Positions 52,298 to 54,734 of a DNA stretch of 64,000 nucleotides are shown in pieces. Positions within the stretch are counted from its first letter, which is position 1; each line of letters begins with the position of its first letter. The notes under the pieces are model-generated. The model worked only from the letters and a program-made list of their open reading frames with translations. It was not told the origin of the DNA and made no database searches. Source of the stretch: Candidatus Eiseniibacteriota bacterium. GTDB taxonomy: Bacteria; Eisenbacteria; RBG-16-71-46. The stretch covers positions 1 through 64,000 of the forward strand of contig JACOSV010000045.1 of the NCBI GenBank assembly GCA_016178725.1, written 5' to 3'. The position numbers were made by a program, and so were the translations under genes.

Positions 52298-52345
52298 CCG
52301 GGTCCGCGAGGGGTGTGCTAGTCTGCCGACGTATCGCCCCCAGTC

Positions 52346-52354
52346 AAGGAGGTG
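52346..52354 (+). promoter_or_regulatory. Perfect Shine-Dalgarno sequence before a CTG start
   Basis: AAGGAGGTG is fully complementary to the 16S rRNA 3' end. It lies five bases before CTG 52360 and 26 bases before the next ATG in frame (52381), so it argues for the CTG as start. An extended -10-like TGCTAGTCT at 52316-52324 upstream could drive transcription; no -35 is evident. Confidence 0.65.
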
Positions 52355-52359
52355 CGGCC

Positions 52360-53142
52360 CTGACCCTCGATACCTCGCGCATGTCATGGACGACCCGGGC
52401 GGAGGCCGCGATCCGCGCCCTCCGCGACGTCGACGGAGCCACGATCCAGCTCGAAGGGGACGAGATCCGCGAGATCCACGTCCTGACCCATTCGAAGCGC
52501 CCGGCGAAGCAGATCGTCCGCGATGTCCAGACCGTGCTCATGACGCTGTTCAACCGCTCATTCGATTACCGCGTCGTCTCGGTCGCCTACACGAAGAGCG
52601 GTGAGGGCGGATCGGACCGCGCGCCCACCCCGGGCGGTGCGGCCGCTGCGAGTGACGCGCGCGTGATGGACCAACCGCGCGAGGCGCGCGGCGACTCCGA
52701 CTTCGAAACCGAGTCCGCCGAGCGCATCCGCTTCGCCAGCGTCAATCTGTTCGTCTCCGGGCCGCGCACGCAGGCGCAGGTCGAGCTCCGCTGGAAGGGG
52801 CTCGCGCGCATGGGCAGCGCCTCCGGATGGAGCTCGCGCGACGGCGCCCACCCGCTGATCGCGCAGGCGACGCTCGCCGCGGTCCAGGAGTTCCTCGCCG
52901 GTGAGACCGCGTTCAACGTGCAGGCGGTCGAGTTCGTGCGCATGGGCAGGCGCCGGGTGGCGCTGGTCGCGCTCGCGCTGCTCGCCGGCCGCGAAGAGCG
53001 TCCGCTCTTCGGCAGCTGCGCCGTGGAGCAGGACGCGCAGCAGGCCGTGGTGCTGGCGACGCTCGCGGCACTCAACCGCGTGATCGGCGGTCTGCCGACG
53101 CGCGAGCCGACCGAATACGTGTTGAGACCGACATCCAACTAG
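52360..53142 (+). CDS. Unrecognised two-part protein, probable CTG start
   Basis: About 260 residues from CTG 52360. The N-terminal part (AEAAIRALRDVDGATIQLEGDEI, then IHVLTHSKRPAKQIVRDVQTVL) looks like a small alpha/beta domain. After a Gly/Ala and acidic linker the C-terminal part (RIRFASVNLFVSG, GAHPLIAQATLAAVQEFL, GSCAVEQDAQQAVVLATLAALNR) has the look of the allosteric dimerisation domain of 2-isopropylmalate synthase-type proteins, but I cannot assign a family. No membrane helix or signal peptide. It precedes the small ORF and the HD-GYP gene. ATG 52381 would be the fallback start. Confidence 0.75.
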   Translation: MTLDTSRMSWTTRAEAAIRALRDVDGATIQLEGDEIREIHVLTHSKRPAKQIVRDVQTVLMTLFNRSFDYRVVSVAYTKSGEGGSDRAPTPGGAAAASDARVMDQPREARGDSDFETESAERIRFASVNLFVSGPRTQAQVELRWKGLARMGSASGWSSRDGAHPLIAQATLAAVQEFLAGETAFNVQAVEFVRMGRRRVALVALALLAGREERPLFGSCAVEQDAQQAVVLATLAALNRVIGGLPTREPTEYVLRPTSN

Positions 53143-53228
53143 GAGGAAGCGGAGCGAGCCATCCCATCCATTGATGCGAAGCGGACCCACCTGCAGGAGT
53201 CATACGTTTCCCAGCAGAATCCGTGAAG

Positions 53229-53237
53229 AAGGAGGTG
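53229..53237 (+). promoter_or_regulatory. Perfect Shine-Dalgarno sequence before a 17-codon ORF
   Basis: AAGGAGGTG, identical to the one at 52346, lies six bases before GTG 53244. Such full matches are rare in this window, so its repetition here points to deliberate translation of the short ORF. Confidence 0.6.
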
Positions 53238-53243
53238 GGCTCT

Positions 53244-53297
53244 GTGGACGATCTCATCATCGAGATCATCAACTTCCTGGGAAAGGCCGGCTGGTAA
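53244..53297 (+). CDS. Possible 17-residue amphipathic peptide
   Basis: GTG 53244 to TAA 53295-53297 encodes MDDLIIEIINFLGKAGW. Plotted as a helix, the Ile, Leu and Phe residues fall on one side and the Asp, Glu, Asn and Lys on the other, as in membrane-active or membrane-sensing peptides. It follows a perfect Shine-Dalgarno sequence with ideal spacing. The upstream in-frame GTG at 53223 has none. The surrounding 53143-53405 is less G+C-rich than its neighbours and holds no other convincing gene. Length is too short for coding statistics, so it rests on the ribosome-binding site and amphipathicity alone. Confidence 0.45.
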   Translation: MDDLIIEIINFLGKAGW

Positions 53298-53405
53298 TCA
53301 GGCCACCCTCGGAATGATGCGTTAGGGATCAGGCTCCAAGATGGGTGTCGGTCTCGTTTCTCTTTCCGAATCGTCCCTTCCGATCCTTCCAGGCGACAGG
53401 AGCTC

Positions 53406-54734
53406 GTGAGCGCATCGCTCGCCCCCCGCCACCCGCGCCTCTTCCGCGTCTACTACGCCGCGGTCGTCGCGGCCGCGGTGGTCGCCTTCGTCGCCTTCAC
53501 GCCGTCCGCCGGTCGCGTGCCGCCGGCGACCGCGATCGTCGTCCTCCTGCTCATGGGGTTCAGCGAGGCCACCGCCGTGCCGCTGCCGGGCGGCGGCTAT
53601 GTCTCGGTCGGCGCCGTGCTCGACCTCGCGTGCCTCATCATCCTCGGCCCGGTCGTCACCGCGTGGCTCAACGTCGTCGCGACGCTGCTCACGCAGCTCG
53701 TCGTGCTGCGGAAGCCGCTGGTCAAGGTCGTCCACAACATGGCCATCTTCGGCCTCACGGCTTTCGCGGCCGGGTTCGCGTTCATCGCCGCCGGGGGCCG
53801 GCCGGGATCGCTCGATCTGCGCCGCGACCTGCCGGCGCTGCTGGCCTGCGGCGCCGTCTACTTCCTCTGCAACTCGGTGTTCGTCTCGACGGTCATCGGC
53901 CTCACGACCGGCCCGAGCATCTGGCGCTCGTGGCAGCGCACGTTCCTGAACGGGCTGCTGCACCACCTTTCGTTCATCGCGCTCGGCACGCTGATCGCCG
54001 TCGTCTATCTGGGCGCCGGGCCGGTCGCCCTCGTGCTGTTCGCGATCCCGTTCCTCGTCGCCCGCCACTCGTTCCAGCTCTACGTCGAGATCCGCACCGA
54101 CCTCAAGGACTTCGTCCGCGCGCTGGCCGAGGTGCTCGAGGAGGTCGATCCCTACACGCGCCAGCACTCGGTGCGCGTCTCGGTCTACGCCGTGCGCATC
54201 GCGCGCGGGCTGCGCATGAGCGAACGCGAGGTGGACGAGGTCGAGTACGCGGCGCTGGTGCACGATCTCGGCAAGATCGGCCCGCATCACCAGCACATTC
54301 TTCAGAAGCCGGGGTCGTTGTCGCACGAGGAGCAGCGCACGCTGCGCGGCCACCCGGCGGCGGGCGCCGAGATCGTGTCGCGCGTGCGGGCGCTGCGGCG
54401 CCCGGCCGAGATCGTGCGCAGCCACCATGAGCGCCCGGACGGGCGCGGTTATCCGTTCGGTCTCATGAGCCGCGACGTGCCGCTCGGCGCCCGCATCCTG
54501 AACGTCGCCGACGCGTTCGACGCGATGACGTCGGACCGTCCGTACCGCCGCGCGCTCTCGGTGGACTCGGCGCTGCGCGAGCTGAAGCAGGGGGCGGGCA
54601 CGCAGTTCGACCGCGATGTGGTCGAGTGCGTGCTGCGGCTCCAGGCCGCGGGACAGTTCCCGCTCGTCCCGAGCCCGAGCAGCGAGGAGTTGCGGCTGCT
54701 GCGGCTCCACCCGCGCAAGGCGCAGCGCGCCTGA
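53406..54734 (+). CDS. Membrane HD-GYP phosphodiesterase-like protein
   Basis: A 442-residue protein with about six hydrophobic segments in the first 235 residues (a MASE-like sensor region, with FVAFTPSAG and ILGPVVTAWLNVVATLL), then an HD-GYP domain. The domain has the metal-binding HDLGKIG and the signature HHERPDGRGYP, plus ILNVADAFDAMTSDRPYR, all intact, so cyclic-di-GMP (or a related cyclic dinucleotide) hydrolysis is expected. GTG 53406 follows AGGAG. It shares one base with purM (TGATG), an odd pairing with a purine gene. Confidence 0.88.
   Translation: MSASLAPRHPRLFRVYYAAVVAAAVVAFVAFTPSAGRVPPATAIVVLLLMGFSEATAVPLPGGGYVSVGAVLDLACLIILGPVVTAWLNVVATLLTQLVVLRKPLVKVVHNMAIFGLTAFAAGFAFIAAGGRPGSLDLRRDLPALLACGAVYFLCNSVFVSTVIGLTTGPSIWRSWQRTFLNGLLHHLSFIALGTLIAVVYLGAGPVALVLFAIPFLVARHSFQLYVEIRTDLKDFVRALAEVLEEVDPYTRQHSVRVSVYAVRIARGLRMSEREVDEVEYAALVHDLGKIGPHHQHILQKPGSLSHEEQRTLRGHPAAGAEIVSRVRALRRPAEIVRSHHERPDGRGYPFGLMSRDVPLGARILNVADAFDAMTSDRPYRRALSVDSALRELKQGAGTQFDRDVVECVLRLQAAGQFPLVPSPSSEELRLLRLHPRKAQRA

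Follow-up and report, generated by a model that had tools for sequence, protein, structure and literature searches.

A structured RNA carrying a micropeptide ORF recurs between the same two genes in Eisenbacteria, Krumholzibacteriota, Gemmatimonadota and Clostridia

What fills the 263-base gap (53143-53405) between an unnamed gene and a membrane HD-GYP gene in this 3.07 Mb draft genome, and is the short ORF that it houses a gene? The window, by which we mean the whole stretch of 64,000 nucleotides that was analysed, carries the ORF on its forward strand. An earlier note had described a perfect ribosome-binding site, six-base spacing, a GTG start, a 17-residue ORF and a TAA stop, and all of these are present: AAGGAGGTG occupies 53229-53237 within the Shine-Dalgarno (SD) sequence AAGGAGGTGGG (53229..53239, + strand), whose core is invariant in alignment A1; GTG follows at 53244 after a six-base spacer; and the micropeptide ORF (53244..53297, + strand), encoding (M)DDLIIEIINFLGKAGW, closes with the last base of TAA at 53297.

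The orthologous place in relatives was located via the HD-GYP gene. Within the family (Candidatus Eisenbacteria), 18 genomes have an ORF of 16-18 residues at the same place behind GGAGGTGG, encoding, for example, MDFDIIIEIINILGKAGW, VDLILELVTFFGRAGW, MDLLIEIIELFGKAGW and MDDVVKVIITFLGKGGW. The SD and a homologous peptide are present in 18/18 family genomes having an intact locus, and the two family genomes that do not contain the unit have no intact locus, the HD-GYP gene being missing or cut by a contig end. The comparison with relatives that the earlier note proposed therefore revealed no frame breaks and no loss of the start or the SD in intact family loci. The family peptides mostly have an acidic N-terminus and end in G[KR]AGW or a slight variant of it (TKAGW, GRASW, GKGGW), substitutions among them are mainly from one hydrophobic residue to another, and a classical signal peptide is absent from these 16-18 aa sequences. 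The earlier note called the peptide strongly amphipathic; it is amphipathic, to a moderate degree when the hydrophobic moment is judged against shuffles, as a fraction of 0.0445 of shuffles reaches the moment of the window peptide, and 12/17 family peptides exceed 95% of theirs.

The pN/pS of the family peptide is 0.58 (bootstrap 0.40-0.85) versus 0.83 and 3.3 for the two remaining frames, a measure limited by saturation, since synonymous sites are near saturated with a pS of 0.52. Some close pairs display a synonymous excess (synonymous to changed, 9:3, 8:2 and 12:5), and other pairs are even or reversed. Remoter Eisenbacteria keep the layout but their peptides differ: LIALWIAAIYVVLNGGRAGW, MEFLQLVVLATLLKWITVNSRGHW, MPKLIYTIIAALLSYITVSGGQSNWW, MSFINLDLLELVGVLLIGFYRAGWGPGGP and MPKVIHSILAALLTYTISGGHAWWANGGHAWWMSGGHAWW. 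In the last of these (locus L030, genome G026) the GGHAWW tail occurs in triple tandem, and the third copy has four synonymous differences and no others, consistent with the tail being maintained by selection as a protein unit. Comparison across genomes thus shows the micropeptide ORF to be a gene, and indicates that the peptide is under selection at the protein level. A chance ORF, for which the very short length speaks and which a single genome would not suffice to exclude, is ruled out, its probability being negligible, because about 90 loci from several phyla conserve the peptide pattern along with its SD, start and stop.

The assertion that nothing else explains the gap proved wrong, because a structured RNA containing the ORF fills most of it. 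In the gap alignment, the conserved DNA exceeds the needs of a 17-codon ORF. The whole element is 232 nt long (53124..53355, + strand), is described by covariance model R1, has no Rfam match, and folds better than 200/200 shuffles (z-score -3.5). It is enclosed by the long-range helix GAGACCGACATC/GATGTCGGTCTC (P1), whose 5' arm GAGACCGACATCCA (53124..53137, + strand) is embedded in the final codons of the upstream gene here and lies downstream of that gene in other genomes, and whose 3' arm is TGGGTGTCGGTCTC (53342..53355, + strand); 7/14 P1 pairs are changed on both sides in the family, and in a further test of the helix matched arms outscore mismatched ones. Inside the element are a hairpin and two copies of one motif (AGCGNAGC, AGCGNAGCG). 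The first conserved motif, AGCGGAGCG (53148..53156, + strand), contains an AGCGNAG that is invariant in 23 loci, and the second, TGCGAAGCG (53175..53183, + strand), is predicted to pair with it through GC/GNA/GC. The hairpin P3 (53191..53217, + strand) pairs CTGC (53191-53194) with GCAG (53214-53217), and 3/4 of its pairs have both-side changes.

The anti-SD segment CCCACCT (53186..53192, + strand) pairs with AGGTGGG (53233-53239), the 3' side of the SD-masking helix, so that CCCAC faces GTGGG of the peptide's SD, and 94% of cells are paired in the family. For the whole structure, 91.5% of cells in the family alignment are paired, and this falls to 29-48% when partners are slid by 1-3 columns. 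By ungapped helix scores, the SD pairing is not above chance within Eisenbacteria alone, and SD masking in Eisenbacteria consequently rests on the family pair counts together with the other clades. RNAalifold proposed a different partner for the SD, the G[KR]AGW codons, but this pairing was dropped as it displays no two-sided changes and the codons vary across clades. Searched with model R1, 18/20 family genomes yield one copy each, and further families yield single copies; three extra members beyond its matches (L030, L033, L065) were identified by eye, and a false positive arose in genome G035 (L064, L066). In the window region, neither a promoter nor a terminator consensus was detected. Sequence comparison shows that the RNA is structured, that its pairs covary and that the SD is paired; the "perfect" ribosome-binding site is predicted to be paired and hidden.

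With the upstream gene as a second anchor for the locus search, the unit was found in combination with different hydrophobic peptides of 14-40 residues, which usually have an aromatic residue near the C-terminus, in Krumholzibacteriota, Gemmatimonadota and Clostridia. The Krumholzibacteriota element encodes 14-residue peptides, e.g., MIEFILGLFSKWEW and MLDFIMKLFFRWEW, one Gemmatimonadetes genome encodes MITIWTAVIGAILAGANWGGRNDW, and in Clostridia, where the upstream gene is present in 37/291 genomes, the peptides after it include MKKIVAILMTILSLVLAGGANLSWW and MARVITVLISLLSLVLAGGAGWNWR. The last residue is Trp in 32/33 peptides outside Clostridia, and 26/27 Clostridia peptides have an aromatic residue within the last five. 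The C-terminal patterns, G[KR]AGW in Eisenbacteria, [KR][WF]EW in Krumholzibacteriota and GGAN[FY]xW-like in Clostridia, are conserved within but not across clades. Other clades mask the SD with different sequences (GATATAGCC/GGCTATATC, GTTTGCC/GGCAAAC, GAATACAGCC/GGCTGTATTC), and these helices contain compensatory changes. P1 is kept as well, with unrelated sequences, e.g., AAGCCAAAACATCG/CGATGTTTTGGCTT, and the Clostridia arms have a median score of 34 when matched and 20 when mismatched. In one Clostridia subgroup (L109, L110, L114, L115) the SD is seemingly masked by another segment, CCCTATTATT-like and 3' of the hairpin, as if selection acted on masking itself.

We searched 398 Firmicutes genomes with a Clostridia core model (R2) in which the start codon is the only peptide sequence. 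It gave 29 matches, one per genome, two of which are in genomes (G099 and G168) that contributed sequences to the model. The upstream gene precedes the RNA in 29/29 matches and the HD-GYP gene lies downstream in 28/29, the 29th being at a contig end. The peptide ORF is intact in all 29, those missed by the script having been read by eye.

The reverse relationship was assessed from the gene pair, in a context sample of 385 genomes around the window's lineage. Among newly fetched upstream genes adjoining an HD-GYP gene, the peptide is present in 6/7 by rule and 7/7 by eye, versus 0/23 for upstream genes with no adjoining HD-GYP gene, and in genome G1057, which has three copies of the upstream gene, the RNA is found only at the copy adjoining HD-GYP. 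The generalization that the RNA occurs wherever the upstream gene adjoins HD-GYP failed in the Krumholzibacteriota-phylum sample, where RNA and peptide are present in 4/22 loci with both genes by rule and absent from 18/22. One further RNA locus of that phylum (L257) was recognized by eye. Loci of Latescibacterota and one of Krumholzibacteriia (L078, L080, L082, L083, L092) likewise have the gene pair and no RNA; at the gene-pair junction of L080 there is a very small overlapping ORF, MIDRVTALSLEW. What stands is that every RNA found adjoins the upstream gene and then HD-GYP unless the contig ends, and that the gene pair often occurs on its own. By sequence comparison, then, the RNA has a fixed context between the same two genes, and the many Krumholzibacteriota with both genes and neither RNA nor peptide identify the unit as an accessory part.

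Pfam assigns the five genes around the micropeptide to PfkB, an unknown protein, HD-GYP, AIRS (purM) and a sigma-54 activator. The unknown is the upstream gene, which has no Pfam or NCBIfam match. Its ORF spans 52315-53142, with a possible GTG start at 52315, but the start is probably CTG 52360, since a perfect AAGGAGGTG lies six bases before it (52345-52362) and it aligns with the start in relatives, giving a gene at 52360..53142 on the + strand. Its AlphaFold2 model (pLDDT 82) and fold matches suggest an N-terminal ferredoxin-like domain, with middling scores only, and a C-terminal domain of the LeuA/citramalate synthase regulatory type, which matches the LiCMS (citramalate synthase) regulatory domain with Z 9.6 over 112-115 residues and that of LeuA with Z 8.2 (Foldseek E 5e-6). 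It therefore shares the fold of the LeuA regulatory (dimerisation) domain but not a sequence match to the Pfam model. The family of upstream genes with this fold occurs in many phyla, with or without an adjoining HD-GYP gene.

The downstream gene (53406..54734, + strand; Pfam HD_5 1.6e-35, MASE9 2.9e-7) encodes a membrane HD-GYP c-di-GMP phosphodiesterase. The catalytic residues H286 D287, H340 H341, G348 Y349 P350 and D369 are invariant in 30 sequences, and the membrane half (53406-54050) matches MASE9. In the predicted model (pLDDT 87) the membrane half resembles the ECF S-component fold (RibU, FolT), with a TM-score to target of up to 0.65 and weak E-values, and this modeled likeness suggests a ligand-binding sensor. 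Loci with and without the RNA could not be told apart by any residue of the membrane half, a result that speaks mildly against a dedicated receptor.

We tentatively favor the reading that the unit is an SD-locked mRNA whose micropeptide product is membrane-active or exported and would act with the neighboring HD-GYP sensor. The RNA of about 230 nt between the two genes holds one short ORF, and with its SD paired the micropeptide would be made only once the RNA opens, so that the mask would limit peptide synthesis until some cue opens it. The product, a hydrophobic or amphipathic segment followed by an aromatic, mostly Trp, C-terminal tail, would then enter the membrane or be exported, and the tail may be its active part. 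Its most likely target would be the neighboring membrane HD-GYP protein, with c-di-GMP hydrolysis altered as a result, and the upstream LeuA-domain-like protein would be a likely third partner, perhaps as a metabolite sensor. Counting against this reading are the absence of a classical signal peptide from the family peptides, the lack of a promoter or terminator consensus in the window region, and the 18/22 Krumholzibacteriota-phylum loci and several Latescibacterota loci in which both genes occur and the RNA does not, where the HD-GYP protein would work without the RNA and peptide. An extended version, in which an aromatic-tailed peptide from an SD-locked RNA is sensed directly by the S-component-like phosphodiesterase, as an ancient, hitherto undescribed RNA-encoded peptide signaling system that couples peptide signals to c-di-GMP in a three-gene locus extending from Clostridia to Eisenbacteria, is speculative and on the whole unlikely. 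The earlier note had listed signaling, membrane-sensing and leader roles, a fair list for a genuine, conserved peptide of hydrophobic or amphipathic character that experiences protein-level selection, but one that missed the structured RNA, the predicted hidden SD and the recurrence in several phyla.

The unit could instead be a cis-acting leader, a reading that we consider plausible but doubtful: a ribosome translating the short ORF, or stalling at its end, would disrupt P1 and alter translation of the downstream HD-GYP gene. The unit does lie directly 5' of HD-GYP nearly always, and in several Clostridia (L110, L128, L131) just a few bases separate the P1 3' arm from the HD-GYP SD that follows it. 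The median distance from the stop codon to that arm, 13 nt in Clostridia and 12 nt in Krumholzibacteriota/Gemmatimonadota, would bring a ribosome that terminates there into collision with P1; in Eisenbacteria, however, this median is 39 nt, and in the window the HD-GYP start is about 50 nt beyond the arm. The conserved C-terminus sits at the stop codon and G[KR]AGW recalls the RAGP terminus of SecM, which, like TnaC, is a short ORF in a structured leader with conserved residues next to the stop. The present unit differs from both in that no arrest motif common to the clades is evident, the C-terminal sequences vary among clades, some peptides have residues beyond the Trp (L033, L205, L210), and the GGHAWW tail repeated in one species would be unnecessary for a last-codon stall. 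The peptide-signal and leader-peptide models may also both be true.

Other readings give the peptide a different role or none. A ligand-sensing (riboswitch-like) or trans-acting RNA with an incidental peptide would account for the near-invariant, unpaired-looking AGCGNAG motifs, two per RNA, but it is improbable given the intact ORF in every one of the RNA-only Firmicutes matches, the synonymous excess in several pairs and the conserved tail. It is also very unlikely that the unit is a type I toxin-like mRNA, that is, one whose product is a small, hydrophobic toxin of the membrane and which has paired 5' and 3' ends, a masked SD and control by antisense RNA. The small hydrophobic peptide, the masked SD and the long-range 5'-3' helix are indeed common to this unit and to hok and aapA mRNAs, whereas toxicity and antisense RNA are features of hok/aapA-type loci. 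Unlike those patchy mobile loci, the unit is present as a single copy per genome, fixed between the same two genes across phyla and adjoining HD-GYP, and several family peptides are acidic and merely 14-18 residues long.

The SD-locked micropeptide that we favor has further counterparts among known systems. The streptococcal SHP and ComS precursors are likewise short, hydrophobic and devoid of a classical signal peptide, and ComS also carries a C-terminal Trp pair. The present unit differs from SHP/Rgg and ComS/ComR in that Pfam detects no Rgg/ComR-type (RRNPP) gene among the five local genes, the neighbor being a membrane HD-GYP gene, and in having a structured RNA with a masked SD. The downstream gene belongs to the MASE-HD-GYP c-di-GMP phosphodiesterases, with catalytic residues intact, and no RNA or peptide partner for these enzymes was found in the literature searched.

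The unit falls short of the full definition of every family tested. Masked SDs, small ORFs in leaders and small hydrophobic peptides are already known as general ideas, and the open-access literature searched contains nothing on this locus. Searches of Pfam/NCBIfam with the peptides of at least 20 aa gave weak, chance-level matches only (the best Phr-like, E 0.08). The locus may yet correspond to an unnamed entry in large lists of candidate RNAs. This RNA-and-micropeptide family, absent from the family libraries searched, spans several phyla and extends to gut Clostridia such as Flavonifractor, and it provides a testable handle on the control of one group of membrane c-di-GMP phosphodiesterases. 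Genes of 14-18 residues that are overlooked by gene finders become recognizable through comparison of the surrounding RNA. Like Rfam families, the unit is a structured, covarying bacterial RNA, but it is below every gathering score: a permissive Rfam 15 search of window positions 53050-53500 gave chance matches only, and the elements of 6 Eisenbacteria, 8 other-phyla and 10 Clostridia loci did not reach an Rfam 15 gathering score. In one Clostridia genome, a raiA RNA (RF03072, 173 bits; L109:201-401) is located about 1 kb upstream of the gene and element.
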